DNA of 44,623 bases from Phycisphaeraceae bacterium (GTDB taxonomy: Bacteria > Planctomycetota > Phycisphaerae > Phycisphaerales > Zrk34), in the NCBI GenBank assembly GCA_028282685.1, contig JANQHK010000155.1:1-44623 (forward strand), in the 5' to 3' direction. A program made the translations under genes and the position numbers. The notes below the pieces were generated by a model. That model was not told the origin of the DNA. It was given only the letters and a program-made list of their open reading frames with translations, and ran no database searches. Below are positions 18,002 through 28,951 of the stretch, in pieces. The stretch's first letter is position 1, and each line of letters begins with the position of its first letter.

Positions 18002-18115
18002 ATGTTTGGTTCCCACCTATCGATAGCGGGCGGTCTTCACAATGCCCTCATTAAGGCCGCAGAACTCGAGATGGATTGCGTCCAAGTATTCACCAACCAC
18101 CCGCCAAGTCGGTAG
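18002..18115 (+). pseudogene. nfo: nfo 5' fragment, copy 2 (replacement end of older element)
   Basis: A 37-codon open frame, MFGSHLSIAGGLHNALIK to CVQVFTNHPPSR then stop. Residues 1-31 are identical in protein sequence to the functional nfo at 29118, although 11 of the 31 codons differ at silent positions. It breaks off at the same FT codons as copy 1. I read it as the replacement N-terminus carried by the older element, later severed by the second insertion. TATACT lies six bases before the ATG. The recombinase pseudogene on the other strand has its stop codon inside the attachment core. Confidence 0.85.
18084..18102. other. Attachment junction 2 (left end of younger element)
   Basis: TTCACCAACCA at 18088-18098 repeats the core of junction 1. 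Left of it is nfo copy 2; right of it begins the 3' end of the serine recombinase gene, whose TGA is read from bases 18090-18092 on the minus strand. Confidence 0.65.
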
Positions 18116-20116
18116 TCGCAAACTCCCACTCCGTTAAGTCATGTCGCAACGTGTACTTGTTGCGTCCGGTGCGATTGGTCCGCTTCGGCGTCCCCGGCTT
18201 CGCGGGCACCCACTCGCGGTCCCAATACAACTCAACTCGTTTGAACAATCGTCGAAACGCCTCTCCGCGTTCGCGGTATTCAAGCGTCGGTAGTTCTGCC
18301 AACAACCGCTCGCGCTCGGCTTGTTGTTTTTTATCCCGATGGAACAGCGCCTCGATGCGTTCACCAAGAGGTACGGTGCGGGGTCGCCAGTTCTCCAGTT
18401 CCACCTCGGCTTCGTCAGCCTTACGCTTCAACACTGCCCGCTGCTGATCGCCCGTCGCCTCCACCCACGCGAGTGTGAACCGCTCGACGGCCTCGGTGGC
18501 CTCCCCAATTCGCCGCTCGGCCTCGGCTACCATGTTGGCCTCCACCATGGTGATCGCATCTTGAAATTCGGTGAGGTCGAACGGCAGTCGATTGAACCGC
18601 GTCTCACCCGGCGGGTCGTCGTAGAAGTGATCCAACGCCAGTCGCCGTACACGCTGAATTTCCGGGTAATTGATACCGTACTCCTTCACCAAGTAGCCCG
18701 CCAGAGCGTTGATACCCTACGGTGGCGTGGGCTTGAAACTCGCGGGAGAAGTCCTCGTCGTTACTCAGCCGGGCCAGCCGTTCTTCGATGTTCTCACGGG
18801 CCGCCGCACTCATCACCCGGTCAAACTCGACGTTCTGCTCGGCGAGCTTATCGAGCAACATTTGCTCTGCTTCATCATGCTTGATGGTATGGAAGCCGCA
18901 CTCAACCTTCTGCCCATTGCTTTGTGCGTTGCGGTATGTGTTGCACACGTATACCACTGATCCGTTATCCATCCGACCGGCCATGTGCTTGCCGCAATGG
19001 CCACAGTAAAGGATGTTTTTCAAATAATAGCGGGGATTGCGTGGGGCAAAGTTCGGTTGCTCACGCTCTGCCGCCAGTTTCTCCTTGGCGCGTTTCCACA
19101 TCTGCTTATCAATGAGCGGTTCGTGCGTTCCCTCCATGATGACCCGCTCGTCCTTACCCCGCCATCGCTTCTGCGCTTCTGTCGGTCCGTTGCGCCATCC
19201 CTTCACATCAACCATCTGCCCGCCGGTGTCGAACGTGCAGAAATCAGCTACCTGTGTTTTCCCAAAGTGTGTGTCGCCTGCGTAGGCGGGATTCTCAAGA
19301 ATGGTGGTAACGAGTGCGTGCGTGAACGGCTTGTCGTAGTAGGTGAGCCCCTCTTCGTTAAGCCGTTTGGAAATTCCCCGGCGGGATAACGATAACTCCG
19401 TGTATAGCTCGAAGACCCGCTGGACGGATCGAACGTGTTCTTCGTTATCGCTTTTCACCAGTTTGATCGTGTCGCTGTGGTCCTTACGCGGGATCTTTTC
19501 CGGCGTTACTTCGCGTGGTGTGTCGCGTAGAGTTCCATCTTCGTTTGAGTCGTAGGTCCATCCCCGCGTGCGGCTCACTGGTTGCCATACCCAACGCAAT
19601 GCACCTCCCGACCCGTAGCATGCCTTGCCGTAGCCAAAGGGGTGCGGACCGGTGGCCTGAACCGGTTGCCTTAAAGTTGCTTATCCGTGTCCGTATTGAT
19701 TGGTACGCGGATTGGCGTAGCTTCTCATCGTTGTTGTGCGCCCCGACCACCGCCAGCACATCCTCAGCTATGCCGTGCCGGGTCAGGTCGCTGTTGTCAC
19801 GCAGCGCGATGAGGCGTGTGCCGTGGGAACGTAGCGTTGCGATGATGGAGAAATATTCGAAGGTGTCGGTCTGACCAAACCGGTCTTGCGACTCCACATA
19901 TGCCGTGCTTATCTCATCGGTTTCGACCTGCTGTATGAATTTCTGGAACTCGTCCGAGGCCGAGACCTTGCTACGGCTAACGGTGTAGACATGCCAGTAT
20001 GGCTGCGGCACCTTGATGCCACGAACGGCCAGCATGTTCTTAACGTTATCGATCTGTCCTTGATGGTCTTGCTCGTCTGTCGATACACGGATGAGTACTG
20101 CTTCGTGTTTGGCCAT
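18090..20116 (-). pseudogene. Large serine recombinase, broken by two frameshifts
   Basis: Three open segments in different frames together make a large serine recombinase. 20116 to about 19655 has the resolvase domain with catalytic-Ser context LIRVSTDEQ. About 19655 to 18715 has the recombinase domain and a zinc ribbon (YCGHCGKHM and a later YVCNTYR). About 18715 to 18090 has the charged coiled coil and C-terminal tail ending in LAGGW. Frame changes occur near 19655 (after NFKATGS, continuing PHPFGYGK) and near 18715 (after HATVG, continuing INALAGY). The 3' end touches the attachment core, as expected for the integrase of this element. It may be truly decayed, or one or both shifts may be sequence errors. 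Confidence 0.8.
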
Positions 20117-20294: not shown

Positions 20295-20885
20295 TCATCC
20301 AGCGTTTCTCAAATAGCGGTTGACGGTTGTGCGTGATACACCAAGGGCCGTGGCAATCTCGTCTTGCGTTAAACCCTTGTCGCGTAGTTTTATTGCACGG
20401 TCGGGTTTGGCCTTGGTGGTGCCGGGCTTGCGGCCTTGGTACACACCACGTTCTTTCGCGGCTTCAATGCCCACACGCTGCCTTTCTTTTATTGCTTCTA
20501 ATTCCATCTCCGCCACTGCAAACAACACGCCTGCAATCAGACGTCCTGTTGCGCCCGATAGATCGAGTTGCTGTGTGATGGATACAACACGCACTCTAAC
20601 ATCGCACCAGTTGGCGAGTAGGTTGATACCGTCGCGTTGCGTTCGCGATAACCGGTCCAGTCGCCACGTTACAACTGTTACGTGACGACCGGCAAAGATG
20701 GCTGCCTGTAATTGCTCCAATGCGGGGCGGGCGGTTGTCGTAGCCGTGTGTTTGTCCACGTACCACGTCGCGGCGTTGGGATCATGGCCGTGGTTGTTAA
20801 GCCATTCAGTAATGGCGGCGCGTTGGCCCGCTTCGTTTTGTCCGGTGGTGCTCACGCGGATGTAAACAGCAATCGTTTTCTGCAT
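20295..20885 (-). CDS. Small serine recombinase (resolvase/invertase family)
   Basis: A 196-residue resolvase/invertase. The N-terminal catalytic domain begins IAVYIRVSTTGQ (catalytic Ser in RVS) and includes TWRLDRLSRTQRDGINLL. A long E-helix region (AEMELEAIKERQRVGIEAAKERG) leads to a C-terminal helix-turn-helix (GLTQDEIATALGVSRTTVNRYL). ATG 20885 is chosen because ATGGAG precedes it by six bases; in-frame starts further upstream lack such a site. It probably resolves cointegrates or inverts DNA in the element; unlike the neighbouring large recombinase it is intact. Confidence 0.9.
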   Translation of the reverse strand: MQKTIAVYIRVSTTGQNEAGQRAAITEWLNNHGHDPNAATWYVDKHTATTTARPALEQLQAAIFAGRHVTVVTWRLDRLSRTQRDGINLLANWCDVRVRVVSITQQLDLSGATGRLIAGVLFAVAEMELEAIKERQRVGIEAAKERGVYQGRKPGTTKAKPDRAIKLRDKGLTQDEIATALGVSRTTVNRYLRNAG

Positions 20886-20975
20886 GTTTGTCTCCATTGT
20901 TGGTGTGTGCCGGTAAGGGTACACCTCTAATGGTGCTTGATGTAAGTCCAGAATGGCCCGATTTATCGCGAACTT

Positions 20976-22464: not shown

Positions 22465-22674
22465 ATGGACAGTCACCTTGCCGGGGAGTTCAAACGCATC
22501 AAGAAGATCCGCCGCACTGCCATGCGTGCTCGTGTTGCCCGTGAGGCCCTTGGTGCTTCGGTGGTATGTGTGTTTGGGAAGGGAACAACAAAAAGTTCTA
22601 AACAACATAAAACAAGGGCAAAACCAGGACATTCGTGGGGAGAGTATAAAGTCAAAGCCACCGGTCAATTTTGA
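22465..22674 (+). CDS. Small hypothetical basic protein
   Basis: A 69-residue open frame starting MDSHLAGEFKRIKKIRRTAMRA, very rich in Lys and Arg, with a weak purine-rich stretch (GAAGGGG) about 14 bases ahead of the start. I recognise no family. It lies in the 350-base gap between the interrupted TPR gene and the convergent thymidylate-synthase-like gene, where I see no other feature. Confidence 0.25.
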   Translation: MDSHLAGEFKRIKKIRRTAMRARVAREALGASVVCVFGKGTTKSSKQHKTRAKPGHSWGEYKVKATGQF

Positions 22675-22733
22675 ACCGACGACCGGCGGTTTACAAAAAG
22701 TAAAAAACTATTCGACTTCCTGCGATCATTATC

Positions 22734-23744
22734 TCAACCGGAGGGCCTCGCCAAATGCTTGAGCCATCGCCCCCACATGCTTTGAAGCGCCTTATCCTCG
22801 CAATTTTCTGCGGCCATCGCCATCTCATCTTTCCAGCCCCGACGCCGAGCATCTTCCGCTGCCAGAATCCAATACATGTTCGCAAGTGGTCCAAGACTAG
22901 ACACTCTGCGCCTCACCGGCTCGCACGGCCTCGAATCTCTGGGTTGAGCAATTAATTCGCGAGCAAGGCGATCCAACCCCTGCCATGCTGTATTTGAGTT
23001 TCGCATTGGCATACGGATATCAATTCCCTGCGGCAGCTTCGGCATTGTCTTGGTGCAAGTAAACTCTTTTAGTGCCTTTTCATACGCGTGAAGACTGCTT
23101 ATGGCATGCATATACGGACCGACTTCAGCGCCAATCCAACCCGCCATAATTTCCTGAAGGTAAGTGAACTGAACAAAGTTGTACGGCATACCACGGAACA
23201 CATCATTGCTGCGGCAGGTTTGGAGCCAGTGAAGGCGGCCATCCACAAGCCGTAGGCATGCTTGGGTGTTGCAAGGGACATCGCCTGTGCGAGGCTTCCC
23301 TGACATACGGGGCATATCTTTATTGGCGTTCCATATCGATAGGACCACTTGGCGTGTTTCGCCATTTGCTTTTAAGACTCTAGCTGCCTGTTTCAGTTGG
23401 TCATAGCCATAGCCGTACCGGAGCCTTGCCCCATACGCCCCAGGCGCGTGCTTTCCTCCACCGACATAATCCCCGTATTTTGAAAACCAATGCACCAAGA
23501 ACTTGACATCGTCTTTTCCAGCCATGATCTGCACGACCTCGGCTATAGCAAACGCGATGTTCATCGCAGGCGTGCGTGATGCCACCCATCTTGCACGGGG
23601 ATTACCAATCTGCACCGCTGCATGCATGAGTTCAACGGTTTTCCCATCACGCGACCCGATTTCATGGGTACCTTGACGATGAACAATGGCCCGAGCCGCC
23701 TGCCTCCACACCACATCCGCTGATTCCCCGGAAAACGTTTTCAT
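22734..23744 (-). CDS. Thymidylate synthase homologue (ThyA family)
   Basis: A 336-residue ThyA-fold enzyme. All main thymidylate synthase residues can be placed: nucleophile Cys158 in DVPCNT, phosphate-binding Arg178 and Asp181 in CRSNDVFRGMPYN, base-selecting Asn189, and His219/Tyr221 in LHAY. Asn rather than Asp at 189 argues for a dUMP (not dCMP) substrate. The product could be dTMP or, as in phage homologues, 5-hydroxymethyl-dUMP; sequence alone does not decide. It is longer than E. coli ThyA (264) with an extra C-terminal region. It is the last gene of the seven-gene operon, and its start overlaps the preceding stop by four bases. It is diverged from housekeeping ThyA and is cargo of the element. 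Confidence 0.85.
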   Translation of the reverse strand: MKTFSGESADVVWRQAARAIVHRQGTHEIGSRDGKTVELMHAAVQIGNPRARWVASRTPAMNIAFAIAEVVQIMAGKDDVKFLVHWFSKYGDYVGGGKHAPGAYGARLRYGYGYDQLKQAARVLKANGETRQVVLSIWNANKDMPRMSGKPRTGDVPCNTQACLRLVDGRLHWLQTCRSNDVFRGMPYNFVQFTYLQEIMAGWIGAEVGPYMHAISSLHAYEKALKEFTCTKTMPKLPQGIDIRMPMRNSNTAWQGLDRLARELIAQPRDSRPCEPVRRRVSSLGPLANMYWILAAEDARRRGWKDEMAMAAENCEDKALQSMWGRWLKHLARPSG

Positions 23745-24814
23745 GGAGAGGCACTCCTTTTCTGGATTTGTTCACGTACCATATCGTTTATGCCCCATTT
23801 AGGGGGAAACCATAGGTCTACGGGAGTTGATTTTGCTTTGAATACCTGCTTGATTCTAGTCCTTTTCGTTAAGCCTTTAACGTCGGGATGCATTACTCTG
23901 GCATACTTATCAACTTCGCAAAACAAATTTTGACAATCAATGAGTTGTAGACGCCGATCACCCAAACACTCGAATTGTAGACGACGTTTTTCAAACTCAT
24001 GTTCCTGTCGATCCGCCATTAGTTTAATCAAGTCCACGTCGCTGAGACCGCCCCGATCCTTGAAGCATTTCGCAATTCCATCACGAGCACCTGGCCCTGG
24101 CACAACGAACGACATTTCATCGTCGTCAAATATCGGCGAATAGTTGATATCGATCGTGAACTGAAAAGCCAGAAAAGGACCGAGCGTCGGATAAGAACGA
24201 AGGATTTCATACACTGCACTCAGTGTGGCGGCCCTACCTATACGCTTAGCAAGGCTATTTTTCATCATGTACTCAATCAAAGCAAGATGATTGCGGTGCT
24301 TTTCTTGGAAACCAAACGATGCACCACCGGAAGGCATAATGTATGCGGCTGAATATATCCGCTTCTTTGCCGCTCTAGCACCCGAAAGAACTCGGGAATA
24401 CTTACTTCGAGAGTAATTCTTCCAAGTCAATTCGCCCAAATGATTTTCAAGCAACTCCCACGTTTCAATCTTATTAAAAAGCTTGAACAGCATGATACGG
24501 AAGACAACTTCCTCGGGCGTTGACCTGCCCTTATATATCACATTTGCAATCAAGTACTGGCTTACGCGATCAGCCGCTCTATAGGCATTTGTGAATCGAT
24601 GCCTACGAAGTACCGGGTCGTCTGTCCACGGTGGTGGACAGCCTCTGACTCGCCGAAACATCGCAGCTTGACGCTCTGCTGCAAAATTCCAGTAACTATC
24701 AAAGACGGGCGTAGTTTTGACTGGATCGAGCCGAGCAAACACATACGGCGCGCGTACCGCAGATGTGACTAGTTGGTTCTTGGTTTGGGCTGGTCGCTGC
24801 ACAGACATACTCAA
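23741..24814 (-). CDS. Protein resembling the 5-hmdU DNA kinase helical family
   Basis: A 357-residue protein. PPWTDDP (61-67), then RFTNAYRAADRVSQY (73-87), then EEVVFRIMLFKLFNKIETWE (101-120) resemble the conserved N-terminal motifs of the helical family found in phage 5-hydroxymethyl-deoxyuridine DNA kinases and alpha-glutamyl/putrescinyl-thymine pyrophosphorylases. Those enzymes act in thymine hypermodification and are related in fold to helix-hairpin-helix DNA glycosylases. A central segment (SYPTLGPFLAFQFTIDINYS) and an acidic DDDEMSF fit that fold. Neighbours are a thymidylate synthase and a nucleotide kinase, which suits base modification. The family call is by memory of motifs; the reaction is inferred. 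Confidence 0.6.
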   Translation of the reverse strand: MSMSVQRPAQTKNQLVTSAVRAPYVFARLDPVKTTPVFDSYWNFAAERQAAMFRRVRGCPPPWTDDPVLRRHRFTNAYRAADRVSQYLIANVIYKGRSTPEEVVFRIMLFKLFNKIETWELLENHLGELTWKNYSRSKYSRVLSGARAAKKRIYSAAYIMPSGGASFGFQEKHRNHLALIEYMMKNSLAKRIGRAATLSAVYEILRSYPTLGPFLAFQFTIDINYSPIFDDDEMSFVVPGPGARDGIAKCFKDRGGLSDVDLIKLMADRQEHEFEKRRLQFECLGDRRLQLIDCQNLFCEVDKYARVMHPDVKGLTKRTRIKQVFKAKSTPVDLWFPPKWGINDMVREQIQKRSASP

Positions 24815-24823
24815 TGAAGAAGG

Positions 24824-25429
24824 TCAACGGATATTGTCCAACTTGGCGACAATTTGTTCGGCATAGGAACTTCTGTCGTCTTGGCGCTCAATTGAATAAA
24901 CCGGAAACTCTGTTTCGAGTGACTCAAGGAAGCGACAGTATGCTAGACGGAGTTGTAAGCCATTGCCACCGGCTTTTTGCAGTCGTTCCTTCGGGCCGAA
25001 AAGGACAAACGCTGCGGATGGGATAGCAAATCCCCAATGGTGACGAGCCAGAAGTTCAAGCAATTCCAATGTGCGTTCATCAACGCCTGCCTCCCTGCCA
25101 TAGATAATGGTGGACCACCAGAAGCGATCCATAATGATGGTATCTCCGCGTTCAAAAGCTGGCCGAATTTTTGTCTGGATGGCATCGATATGAGCCGCTG
25201 CGTGCAGGACCTGTAGACAGGCAGGAGTAACTGACTGAACGCCAAACGTTTCAGGCTTATGATGGAGGTCATAAATGAGTCGCCCGACAGTACCAGATTC
25301 ATTTCCTGGAAAGGCGAACAGATGAACAGTCTTGCCTGATGCCCGCAAGTTTTCTGCAAGCACCTCTGCTGTTGTGCTTTTGCCTCCTCCGTCTGGCCCT
25401 TCCAAAACAATTAGCCGACCAAGTGTCAT
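24824..25429 (-). CDS. Thymidylate-kinase-like P-loop kinase
   Basis: A 201-residue P-loop kinase of the dTMP kinase family. Walker A is GPDGGGKST (11-19), and the DR-x-x-x-S motif of dTMP kinases appears as DRFWWST (101-107). A Lys/Arg-rich lid near FGPKERLQKA is present. Length fits Tmk (about 205-215). In the operon it would phosphorylate dTMP or a modified dUMP made by the ThyA homologue. Its start overlaps the preceding stop (ATGA), and nine bases separate it from the next gene. It is probably not the housekeeping tmk, being on the mobile element. Confidence 0.85.
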   Translation of the reverse strand: MTLGRLIVLEGPDGGGKSTTAEVLAENLRASGKTVHLFAFPGNESGTVGRLIYDLHHKPETFGVQSVTPACLQVLHAAAHIDAIQTKIRPAFERGDTIIMDRFWWSTIIYGREAGVDERTLELLELLARHHWGFAIPSAAFVLFGPKERLQKAGGNGLQLRLAYCRFLESLETEFPVYSIERQDDRSSYAEQIVAKLDNIR

Positions 25430-26274
25430 TCAGTACCACCTTCGGTTTCCGCTGGCATCTCGCCAATGATTTCAGAAAGCGTCTCAGTAAGCTTCTTCGT
25501 TGCAGTTTTAGTAACGCTGCCTCGCTCCGGCAATGCGACAAAGATATTCACATGATGCAACGGCAAGGCCATCTCGTGCGCCATGAATGTCCCAAGTTGA
25601 CAGAGCCCTAGGTAGTTGCCATATCCCCGATCAAAGATGTATTCCGTGGGATAATACGCCGAAACAGACAGTCCTTGGTCAGTATGCCCAAAACTCACCT
25701 GTTGCAAACAAGGAAACCCTGACAGTGCAGCTCCTGTATGGTCTTTGGCAGGGTCGTAAATACTCACCTGAAGCGCGCTACGGCGTGTTTTACCTTGATC
25801 GCGATTCCACCAGCGGAGAATTTCCCTGAGTTGATTCACACGCTTGCCTTCGGGGGCACTAGAGCTCACTCCGGTGGCATCAATCATCCTGAGAAAATAT
25901 GTGCCTCTGCTGTTCAGCCGTGACAGCTTCTTGAGCCTAGGGTAAACACGTTTAACATAGTGCTCGAATAACTCGTCAGCAGGACGTGGCGCACGGGGCG
26001 ACCAACACATGTGAGGAAAGATCGTGCTTGCTGTTGCAGATACCGTCTGATGCTTGTGTTCACCCAAGCTGTGGTTGATGCTGCAGATCGTCTCATCCAA
26101 AGCCGTGCGAATGGCTGGAACCTCTATGGGTTCATGTAAATCGTCAAATTCTGAGATCGAAAGAACGATCGGCTCCTTCAACTCCCCTTTGACTGCACCG
26201 TAAACACGTAAAAAAGCAATTGCCCACGCTACGGACAGATTCCCACTTGATATGACAACATTATCAGCATTCAT
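25426..26274 (-). CDS. Divergent thymidylate-synthase-like protein, altered active site
   Basis: A 282-residue protein with no close family I know. Its C-terminal half can be aligned by eye with thymidylate synthase. FPCLQQVSF gives a Cys (189) where the nucleophile sits, and AYYPTEYIFDRGYGNYLGL matches the following strand-helix with the Asn (220) kept but the phosphate-binding Arg replaced by Pro209 and the Asp by Tyr212. LGTFMAHEMAL continues the match. The N-terminal half holds MCWSPRAPRPADELFEHYVKR. I infer a ThyA-fold paralogue that no longer binds a nucleotide phosphate in the usual way; it may act on another substrate, on DNA, or be a sensor or partner of ThyA. It overlaps both neighbours (11 and 4 bases). 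Confidence 0.5.
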   Translation of the reverse strand: MNADNVVISSGNLSVAWAIAFLRVYGAVKGELKEPIVLSISEFDDLHEPIEVPAIRTALDETICSINHSLGEHKHQTVSATASTIFPHMCWSPRAPRPADELFEHYVKRVYPRLKKLSRLNSRGTYFLRMIDATGVSSSAPEGKRVNQLREILRWWNRDQGKTRRSALQVSIYDPAKDHTGAALSGFPCLQQVSFGHTDQGLSVSAYYPTEYIFDRGYGNYLGLCQLGTFMAHEMALPLHHVNIFVALPERGSVTKTATKKLTETLSEIIGEMPAETEGGTE

Positions 26275-27133
26275 CGGGATCCTCTAAGTGTCGGTGAATA
26301 GCAGCCCCATCGTGGCATTTCGGCATAACACGCAGAAACGTGGCCCAATCATCAAGCGGGCATTCGGCTCGCGCAAGGCCACGCCGTATTGCCCTTACTG
26401 TCATGTAGCTTTCCGATTCTTCAACGACTTCAACCGCAGCACCCTCAACCAGTGCCCCTGTCGGCAAGAAAGCAAGATCACCAACGACAAGGTCAACAGG
26501 CCGGTCGGTCCAATGTTCATCGACGACCACAACATTCTCGCAAATTGGCTGACCCACAAGCGAGGCACGGATCGTCTTTGGCTGGACCGAAAGCAAACGA
26601 TCACATACTTCAAGGCTAAGCGAACGGATCGTCCAGCGAAGGTGGTTGATGAGCGTCTGATAGCCCACTCCAAGATGACCAGCAGCCACAAAGACCTGCT
26701 CCGCCGTCGGAGTGTTCAGCGACCAGCCACGTGCGGTAAATATACGAGTGACGGCAGCCTGAGGCATCAGCAGATAAGCCCCAAAAAGACTGGCTTGCAA
26801 TTCCTCCGGTTCGCCCTTTCGTCCTCGCTCGACACCCTCAATGTATTCATCTACTCTAGTACCATGGCCAAATGCATGGTGCCCAATTTCATGGGCACAG
26901 GTAGAGTTCTGGTAACCAACAGGGCGATCTGAACCAATCAAGACGACGGGATTCTCTCCCCCTGCATACATACCCGCCAGACTGGACAGCGGCTTGAACC
27001 AGACTTCAATACCTAGTTGCGCAGCAACATCAAGCACACAGATTGCATGATCCATTGGAATACCGAGACGTTTGCGGACCTGCATTGCGTGTCTGAGCAC
27101 GGTGCGTGCCTCACCAATGGCCAACTGCATCAC
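26264..27133 (-). CDS. ImmA/IrrE-family metallopeptidase
   Basis: A 289-residue protein with the COG2856 zinc-peptidase domain: HEIGHHAFGHG (81-91) holds the HExxH motif, and EELQASLFGAYLLMP (110-124) supplies the third ligand Glu and the family's typical following helix. ImmA/IrrE enzymes cleave partner XRE-type repressors in response to DNA damage or other signals. The XRE gene is immediately upstream with a four-base overlap, so this is a classic regulator pair. The C-terminal 100 residues look strand-rich (VVVVDEHWTDRPVDLVVGD) and may sense a ligand. In this operon it likely controls induction of the thymidylate-type genes. Confidence 0.9.
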   Translation of the reverse strand: MMQLAIGEARTVLRHAMQVRKRLGIPMDHAICVLDVAAQLGIEVWFKPLSSLAGMYAGGENPVVLIGSDRPVGYQNSTCAHEIGHHAFGHGTRVDEYIEGVERGRKGEPEELQASLFGAYLLMPQAAVTRIFTARGWSLNTPTAEQVFVAAGHLGVGYQTLINHLRWTIRSLSLEVCDRLLSVQPKTIRASLVGQPICENVVVVDEHWTDRPVDLVVGDLAFLPTGALVEGAAVEVVEESESYMTVRAIRRGLARAECPLDDWATFLRVMPKCHDGAAIHRHLEDPDEC

Positions 27134-27477
27134 GCTCCCCCTTCTGTCTTGAGAGCGTTTAACAGCCTGATCACACGTTGAAGGTCATCTGGCTTGAGTC
27201 GCTGCAACTCACGCGCCGCGAGTTCCAATTGTGGATCAACGGGATCGTCTTCTGGATCAGTGATCATGGTTAGCCACGTCACCGAAACGCGATAATGACT
27301 TGCTAAGGTCGAAAGTTCTTCGGCAGACACCCTGCGCTGTCCGGCTTCGATTTGGCTCACTGTTGGCCTGTGCCAACCCATTAACTTAGCGACTTGGCCT
27401 TGGCTAAGACCTGCTTGTTCCCTTGCGACGCGAAGCCGTTTCGCTATGCTCTCACGTTGTTCACTCATTTCTGTCAT
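27130..27477 (-). CDS. XRE-family HTH transcriptional regulator
   Basis: A 115-residue Cro/CI-type regulator. The helix-turn-helix spans about residues 10-65 (RLRVAREQAGLSQGQVAKLM, then GWHRPTVSQIEAGQRRV, then LASHYRVSVTWL). The C-terminal part is short and helical. It is followed by its probable protease (ImmA/IrrE type) and preceded by the ACP-like gene and the operon promoter, where a perfect 23-bp palindrome overlaps the -10. It is the likely repressor of the whole operon including itself. Confidence 0.92.
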   Translation of the reverse strand: MTEMSEQRESIAKRLRVAREQAGLSQGQVAKLMGWHRPTVSQIEAGQRRVSAEELSTLASHYRVSVTWLTMITDPEDDPVDPQLELAARELQRLKPDDLQRVIRLLNALKTEGGA

Positions 27478-27480
27478 GGA

Positions 27481-27768
27481 TCACTTCGCCTTCTCTGCCG
27501 GGGCGTGCCCCTTCGATCTCACCCAAGCCTTGAGTTCACCGACCGTGCGCATTCGCTTCTTGTTTTCGTGGACCAGCGGATTGCAATCGTGTGGCACATC
27601 AATACCAAGGCGAGCCTCAAGATCGCATGCCAGTTCCACACCGTCTTCGCTGCACAGCCCGGCAGACATGAGATTTAAGCCATCTGTTAATTGCGGCGTA
27701 TTTCCGCCTCTAGCAAGTAGTTCACGGACAATTCGTTCAGCCGTTTTGTCGAATGTAGCCTTGGGCAT
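27481..27768 (-). CDS. Small acyl-carrier-protein-like protein
   Basis: A 95-residue protein, first gene of the operon, with AAGGAG seven bases ahead of the ATG. The section CSEDGVELACDLEARLGIDVP followed by RMRTVGELKAWV has the helix pattern of acyl carrier proteins (compare the DSLxxVELxxxLExxFxxxIP consensus). A Ser is at the attachment position, but the flanking Asp and Leu are not kept, so phosphopantetheine loading is uncertain. It could be an ACP-fold partner or regulator instead. Only three bases separate it from the XRE gene. Confidence 0.6.
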   Translation of the reverse strand: MPKATFDKTAERIVRELLARGGNTPQLTDGLNLMSAGLCSEDGVELACDLEARLGIDVPHDCNPLVHENKKRMRTVGELKAWVRSKGHAPAEKAK

Positions 27769-27784
27769 AATCAGGCTCCTTACT

Positions 27785-27824
27785 ATAGGTAAGGATATCT
27801 TACCTATTGATCATGCTGTGTCAA
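27785..27824 (-). promoter_or_regulatory. Operon promoter with palindromic operator
   Basis: Read on the minus strand, TTGACA (27819-27824) is followed after 16 bases by TAAGAT (27797-27802). The perfect palindrome ATAGGTAAG-GATAT-CTTACCTAT (27785-27807) covers the -10. This is the expected position for repression by the operon's own XRE protein. Confidence 0.75.
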
Positions 27825-28246: not shown

Positions 28247-28951
28247 TCACTCGCATTTGTCGGTCCCGCCGTCACACAAAAAACGCCGCACCCATCGGCG
28301 CACGTTTCTTTCGTGGGTGCCAACTGTTCGGGCGATAGCTCGGTAGCTCATTCCTTCGTCATATAGTTGTCGCACTTGGGGCAGCAATCGTTCACGCCGC
28401 CGCTTCTTGTAGCATGGCTTGTTTGGCCGCCCACCGGTGTTTCCTTTTCGACGCTGCCCTCGTTTCGATTGGTGGGCTCGTTCTTCTTTCCAAGTAGCAT
28501 CAGGATCAAGGAGGGTCACTAACATCACGTCGCCACACACCCAACGCAGATCCCGTAATGCGATCATCCCGGCAACCAGATGGGGGCGGTGTTGGGAATG
28601 GTAACGCGGGTGTCGGGCGTATCGGCTCGTGCTTTCGGCGAGCAACACTGCACCGGCTCGTGCCGCTCGGTTGGCGGCGTCGTAAAGACCCGCATCAGCA
28701 TTGCCATTGCTTGCTCTACCAACCCAAAGCACAACGTCTACTACAGTGCCACCTCGGGCCTCAACGGCTGTATGAAGGTCGGTTTCTTGATCGGCATTGT
28801 TGCCTCTGGATTTCTGTTGGCACTTGGATACTCGGCACCAAATCACGACCTTGGTTCCCGGCTGTATGGTTTCAATGTCGTGGATGTAGGTGCTGGGAAG
28901 GTTGGATTTGTGTTGGCGTCTTGGCCGACGTATTCCGCGTTTTCGTTGCAT
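28247..28951 (-). CDS. Resolvase-like serine recombinase with C-terminal HTH
   Basis: A 234-residue protein. The N-terminal half resembles a resolvase catalytic domain (VIWCRVSKCQQ with the Ser in RVS; LLAESTSRYARHP like the conserved SRLxR region). The second half has a basic linker (RRKGNTGGRPNKPCYKKRRR) and a clear helix-turn-helix (GMSYRAIARTVGTHERNVRRWVRRF). AGAAGGG precedes the ATG. It lies at the right end of the element, 166 bases from the restored nfo. The catalytic domain is divergent, so activity is uncertain. Confidence 0.75.
   Translation of the reverse strand: MQRKRGIRRPRRQHKSNLPSTYIHDIETIQPGTKVVIWCRVSKCQQKSRGNNADQETDLHTAVEARGGTVVDVVLWVGRASNGNADAGLYDAANRAARAGAVLLAESTSRYARHPRYHSQHRPHLVAGMIALRDLRWVCGDVMLVTLLDPDATWKEERAHQSKRGQRRKGNTGGRPNKPCYKKRRRERLLPQVRQLYDEGMSYRAIARTVGTHERNVRRWVRRFLCDGGTDKCE

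Follow-up and report, generated by a model that had tools for sequence, protein, structure and literature searches.

What would a bacterium make with an operon that places thymidylate synthase-type and nucleotide kinase-like genes behind a carrier protein and a repressor-protease switch? The question is raised by a stretch of 44,623 nucleotides from a Phycisphaeraceae bacterium (Planctomycetota; assembly GCA_028282685.1, contig JANQHK010000155.1), the whole of which we call the window, and which carries seven such genes between positions 22734 and 27768. The arrangement is not due to chance, because it recurs in 30 other loci, where its conserved core is a carrier protein, a repressor, a protease and a variant thymidylate synthase-fold protein, usually accompanied by a protein of the 5-hydroxymethyldeoxyuridine (5-hmdU) DNA kinase family. 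Our favored reading, which we hold at about even confidence, is that of a horizontally mobile, DNA-damage-inducible antiviral operon whose enzymes make a 5-substituted deoxyuridine product.

A seven-gene operon behind one promoter

All seven open reading frames lie on the minus strand, within the limits given by an initial annotation of the window, and neighbors overlap by 4, 11, 4 and 4 bases or stand 3 and 9 bases apart. From the promoter onward they encode an acyl-carrier-protein-like protein (ACP, 95 aa, 27481-27768), a CapH-like XRE repressor (XRE, 115 aa, 27130-27477), a CapP-like ImmA/IrrE metalloprotease (ImmA, 289 aa, 26264-27133), a thymidylate-synthase-fold protein (TSv, 282 aa, 25426-26274), a dTMP-kinase-like P-loop kinase (TMK, 201 aa, 24824-25429), a 5-hmdU DNA kinase helical-domain protein (HMK, 357 aa, 23741-24814) and a MilA-like thymidylate synthase (TS, 336 aa, 22734-23744). 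A single sigma-70-like promoter stands upstream of them all (TTGACA at 27824-27819, a 16-nt spacer and TAAGAT at 27802-27797, minus strand). A weak terminator-like hairpin lies 3' of TS (22656-22684, minus strand), with a count above that of shuffled sequences that is not decisive.

The initial annotation had described seven closely packed genes under one promoter, and the open reading frame positions and the promoter bear this out. Its family calls agree with our Pfam, ACP-profile and TSv-fold results, including those for the products encoded at 23741 and 25426, which fall in PF18723 and in the thymidylate synthase fold and not in unrelated families. A Pfam search of the seven proteins assigned no family to the first and fourth genes, ACP and TSv.

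Recurrence across phyla and plasmids

With one profile per gene, we found XRE, ImmA and TSv to co-occur in 30 loci apart from the window, drawn from several phyla, plasmids and viral contigs (L002-L007, L009, L012, L013, L015, L017, L019-L021, L025, L026, L029, L030, L032, L047, L048, L050-L052, L065-L068, L089 and L090; L022, a near copy of L021, and L088, identical to L004, were left out). The co-occurrence in other genomes that the initial annotation had called for is thus present. The exact gene set of the window appears again in L089, with an added dCTP deaminase, and in L002, with an added holo-ACP synthase (AcpS). L012 is a complete operon from Paraburkholderia xenovorans LB400, and L029 lies on a Rhizobium plasmid. 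The conserved core is ACP-XRE-ImmA-TSv, mostly extended by HMK, with TMK and TS frequent yet optional.

HMK is found in 28 of the 30 loci and uracil-DNA glycosylase in the remaining two, so HMK is not strictly required; the locus counts were seeded mostly with HMK, and the share of TSv operons lacking it is probably underestimated. MazG and MazG_C (PF03819/PF18722) are present in 24 of the 30, and genes for dCTP deaminase, MazG pyrophosphohydrolase and radical SAM proteins recur within the operons. A pattern noticed post hoc is that TS occurs in five of the seven loci without MazG_C (window included) vs two or three of the 24 with it. A strict mutual exclusion of TMK and MazG_C was considered and rejected, as L013, L015, L029 and L051 have both. 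No MazG_C was found elsewhere in the window's genome, in a search run without a positive control.

A genome scan with HMK returned 26 loci at 44-60% identity, in Pseudomonadota, Planctomycetota, Cyanobacteriota, Bacteroidota, Actinomycetota, Myxococcota and candidate phyla, and plasmids yielded 21. PF18723 is rare, being present in 2 of 61 relatives and, within a Gammaproteobacteria sample that counts its own centre, in 4 of 369 genomes. A reciprocal search with TSv in 392 Planctomycetota genomes gave four clear matches, the window and three others, all within operons of this kind; a fifth match (L091, in genome G592) turned out to be a generic thymidylate synthase. Among ten plasmid matches to TSv, seven lie in records with HMK, and of the other three the two inspected both have uracil-DNA glycosylase.

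Two variants extend the range of gene contents. On two conjugative plasmids (L065, 3507-9421; L066, 3589-9345), the order is ACP-XRE-ImmA-C1 peptidase-TSv with a dCTP deaminase and without HMK, uracil-DNA glycosylase and MazG_C lie on the opposite strand, and one copy adjoins Shedu. L017 (at 3527) and L019 (at 8324) hold a lysine/ornithine N-monooxygenase-like gene within the operon.

A repressor-protease switch with a shared operator

XRE matches HTH_3 (5e-16, Pfam) and capH (2e-13, PADLOC), and ImmA matches PF06114 (Peptidase_M78; 1e-9, Pfam) and capP (1.6e-10, PADLOC) with a conserved HExxH motif, H81-E82-x-x-H85. Overlapping the -10 box on the minus strand is a palindrome, ATAGGTAAGATATCCTTACCTAT (27807-27785), followed by a third half-site, GTAAGG (27783-27778). 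We predict that this element (27778-27807) is the operator of the XRE repressor.

Counting the window, 19 loci have the motif GTAAGAT-N-N-TCTTAC-N5-GTAAG over the -10 box, with 11 or 12 of 12 core positions matched; it precedes the carrier gene, the first of the operon, by 25-52 nt. Random stretches of equal length from the same loci reach an 11-12/12 match in 0-0.8% of cases, and the three loci examined after the motif had been defined (L067, L068 and L089) all carry it. An operator recurring in this position means that repressor and operator have traveled together with the operon, and its sequence hardly differs between lineages as far apart as Planctomycetota, Cyanobacteriota, Bacteroidota and Pseudomonadota. 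L017 and L019 have an additional copy ahead of MazG_C. Where a papain-type peptidase gene stands between ImmA and TSv (L007, L020, L052 and L065), the palindrome is another one, GTTCGATATTCGAAC or a near variant. A candidate second operator in the window's own genome (G000:C69:16106) was discarded: it is a palindrome with one mismatch, no related gene is adjacent, and a reversed-pattern control was equally frequent.

Conserved operator and profile matches together support the XRE/ImmA control proposed initially. By analogy, these regulators naturally suggest induction by phage or DNA damage, since single-stranded DNA activates CapP as well as PprI, a related protein (PMC10904395, PMC13373217).

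A predicted phosphopantetheine carrier

The "ACP-like" label of the first gene product holds at the level of profiles: an alignment profile of 13 homologs matches acyl carrier proteins in PDB (best 4e-7). Ser40, the sole fully invariant column among these homologs, aligns with the phosphopantetheine serine, and the protein is accordingly predicted to be a carrier phosphopantetheinylated at this residue. An ACP-like open reading frame lies immediately ahead of XRE in nearly all loci checked, across operator classes, and 14 of the 30 loci include an AcpS gene; the window has none.

Enzymes of a proposed 5-substituted deoxyuridine chemistry

TS (PF00303, 2e-19; Cys158) has a profile nearer to MilA (2e-46) than to ThyA (6e-24), and MilA, the CMP 5-hydroxymethylase of mildiomycin synthesis, is its closest solved relative. 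In MilA, a pyrimidine-nucleotide hydroxymethylase, the preference for ribose is set by Lys133 and Ala176, and Asp186 accompanies cytosine; enzymes have Arg and Ser where the sugar is deoxyribose, and Asn where the base is uracil (PMC5175136). The operon TS differs from MilA in having Arg131, Ser179 and Asn189 at these positions, and because these are dUMP-type residues we predict dUMP as its substrate; methylation and hydroxymethylation are indistinguishable from the sequence.

TSv was harder to place. The initial annotation called it a ThyA-like variant; it has no real Pfam match and only a weak NCBIfam one (TIGR03283, 7e-6), but the fold assignment stands, as an AlphaFold model built from 19 homologs (predicted local distance difference test score 87) retrieves MilA and ThyA/thymidylate synthases in Foldseek (E 6e-9, probability 1.00). 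The nucleophile Cys189 and Asn220 are invariant. Both motifs that contact the phosphate and ribose of dUMP, RSxD and HxY, are absent from the homolog alignment, and by this motif test TSv, although of thymidylate synthase fold, does not qualify as a dUMP thymidylate synthase.

In dTMP kinases, a base-stacking Phe and an Arg line the base pocket. TMK (PF02223, 1e-17) retains the P-loop and the DRF/Y motif, and invariant histidines (His76 and His80) replace these two residues. HMK belongs to HMUDK_hel (PF18723; 3e-111, 372 bits) and has 40-60 invariant or near-invariant residues. Its initial label, 5-hmdU-kinase-helical-like, is right as to family; a role as a kinase by itself was rejected, as the HMK sequence contains no P-loop. 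TMK and HMK are fused into one polypeptide in L013, L015 and L050. Taken together, the family results for TS, TSv, TMK and HMK support the thymine/uracil nucleotide theme of the initial annotation.

Mobility and defense neighborhoods

G+C content is 47-53% across the operon vs 57-65% in its flanks. Pieces of one large serine recombinase in different frames (resolvase domain, recombinase domain and zinc ribbon; 18090-20116) and a complete small resolvase (20295-20924) lie on one side and a helix-turn-helix recombinase-like gene (28247-28951) across the operon on the other; these are probably remains of the element's integration machinery. The GC drop, flanking recombinase genes, sporadic occurrence and plasmid homologs uphold the view that the operon is mobile.

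XRE-ImmA-TSv operons have defense genes as neighbors, namely Cas9 (L089), Shedu (L065) and ABC-three-component/SIR2 (L029 and L030). HMK also occurs in a second context, next to TIR(ThsB)-Nmad2 genes and in one case (L028) adjoining a patatin phospholipase, as well as in phages and viral contigs, in some of them beside TS. TIR(ThsB) is restricted to this second context, and no TIR match, and hence no ThsB of Thoeris, was found in the window. A clean phylogenetic split between the two contexts was rejected: L028 nests with an XRE-ImmA-TSv locus at 100/99 support, and the HMK tree forces several context switches. In L028, on a Gloeothece plasmid (114-4660), patatin phospholipase, HMK, MazG_C, TIR (ThsB1-like, PADLOC 3e-54) and Nmad2 stand in a row, possibly as an effector-bearing form of the same chemistry. 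A TIR-Nmad2-HMK-radical SAM operon is present in L036 (a Parabacteroides plasmid) and L061 (an IMG/VR contig).

A proposed inducible antiviral pathway and its alternatives

We favor an inducible antiviral pathway because relatives of the regulators are activated by single-stranded DNA and because an anti-phage system of Escherichia coli appears to combine three of the enzyme domains (PMC13092281); the antiviral role draws further support from the movement of HMK between TIR(ThsB)-Nmad2/patatin contexts and these operons, and from the defense neighbors. In such a pathway, XRE bound to the GTAAGA/TCTTAC operator covering the -10 box would hold the operon off. Single-stranded DNA arising from phage attack or DNA damage would activate ImmA, which would cleave XRE as CapP does CapH and so turn the operon on. 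TS would produce a 5-substituted dUMP, most likely 5-hydroxymethyl-dUMP, which TMK together with HMK would phosphorylate or further derivatize, and TSv with the phosphopantetheinylated carrier would act on the 5-position once more. What results, either a hypermodified deoxyuridine nucleotide or a modification placed in DNA, would then harm viral replication or serve as a signal.

A bolder variant, to which we give a small chance, concerns the carrier. TSv might form an exocyclic 5-methylene on deoxyuridine that is attacked by the phosphopantetheine thiol of the carrier rather than by hydride or water. The thymine nucleotide so formed, carrier-linked or pantetheine-derived and released only once DNA damage has lifted repression, would be the antiviral product or signal. 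If so, it would be a carrier-protein-dependent immune nucleotide, a protein-bound nucleotide chemistry that is new to our knowledge.

Several observations weigh against the antiviral pathway. The operon of the window contains no recognizable killing effector, and the Asp of the usual DSL motif is missing from its carrier, which has no Pfam match. The activity of HMK rests on the family name; its fold gives no significant Foldseek match, the best (probability 0.63) being to DNA glycosylases, so that a DNA glycosylase fold is a hint only, and two loci replace it with uracil-DNA glycosylase. Finally, blastn searches of E. coli genomes at the DNA level, with the HMK genes of five loci and one further fragment, did not retrieve the anti-phage system of PMC13092281, a negative from which we draw no conclusion on homology.

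An unlikely alternative is DNA self-marking, in which thymine hypermodification would shield the mobile element or the host against restriction as in hypermodified-thymine phages. TS, kinase and PF18723 proteins are the families of phage thymine hypermodification, HMK is itself found in phages and viral contigs, at times beside TS, and the operon is mobile. It has, however, neither an aGPT-PPlase or amino-acid transferase nor modified-base replication genes, and under damage-type repression DNA would stay mostly unmarked. We also know of no counterpart of the carrier protein and AcpS in phage hypermodification pathways, which counts against self-marking.

Similarly improbable, in our judgment, is a sensor built from HMK and from TSv, seen as a thymidylate synthase that lost its contacts to phosphate and ribose; the two would bind phage nucleotides or bases that carry modifications, and the outcome would be passed on to ImmA/XRE or to a distant effector. 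TSv always shares its operon with the regulators and, without RSxD and HxY, retains the Cys and Asn; a precedent counted in its favor is DndF, proposed as a sensor of phage modified nucleotides (PMC10853773). Yet TSv, HMK, TMK and TS all retain invariant catalytic-type residues, and dCTP deaminase and MazG as partners suggest synthesis over sensing.

Sanitation of nucleotide pools, a stress response that reshapes dUTP/dTTP pools after DNA damage and is not phage-specific, seems quite unlikely. It would account for the damage-type regulator, for the recurring dCTP deaminase, MazG, TS and TMK, and for uracil-DNA glycosylase in two variants, but it leaves HMK, TSv and the carrier protein unexplained, and it fits poorly with the extremely patchy distribution of PF18723 and with the defense-island neighbors. 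A nucleoside-antibiotic pathway using the carrier as in peptidyl nucleoside synthesis is very improbable: despite the MilA-like TS, the carrier with AcpS, and the radical SAM and Lys/Orn monooxygenase-like genes of some loci, the operon is too small, has no adenylation, condensation or export genes, is under a damage-type repressor and sits among defense genes.

If the antiviral pathway is correct, a recurring immune-type operon puts a thymine-nucleotide modification pathway, including a predicted phosphopantetheine carrier, under a damage-type switch. Three elements go beyond the initial annotation: the operator, the phosphopantetheine serine together with the AcpS genes linked to it, and the residues that set TS specificity. 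The idea is open to direct test at the operator, the catalytic cysteines and the serine of the carrier.

Relation to known systems

CBASS (cyclic-oligonucleotide-based antiphage signaling system) loci controlled by CapH/CapP likewise have an XRE and M78 protease pair directly ahead of their enzymes and an operator at the promoter. A search of the seven window proteins, in contrast, gave neither CD-NTase nor Cap effector, and here the carrier protein gene precedes the regulators. With thymidine hypermodification in phages (SP10, ViI and M6) the operon shares a TS-family enzyme with the uracil-type Asn, a nucleotide kinase and a PF18723 protein. It differs in being bacterial and repressor-controlled and in having TSv and the predicted phosphopantetheine carrier, and Pfam found no aGPT-PPlase or amino-acid:DNA transferase among its seven proteins.

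A close match in enzyme content is the anti-phage E. coli system found with DefensePredictor (PMC13092281, Science 2026). The legend of its Fig. 3C names TS, dNMP kinase and 5-hmdU DNA kinase domains, which we infer to belong to one system, and the window operon holds the same three domain types; systems validated in that study protect against phage from a low-copy plasmid. Its text names no ACP, XRE, ImmA or TSv. The initial statement that no system with this exact set was known is to be read with the qualifier that a system annotated with three such enzyme domains is reported there to act against phage. The ACP-XRE-ImmA-TSv core with its shared operator appears not to have been described previously.

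Kongming (dITP; PMC12948488) and Clover (p3diT; PMC12265719) derive antiviral signals from deoxynucleotides, a class of immune signal recognized only recently in bacteria. No homolog of either was recognized among the seven proteins, and the chemistry proposed here, acting at the 5-position of deoxyuridine, would extend that class.

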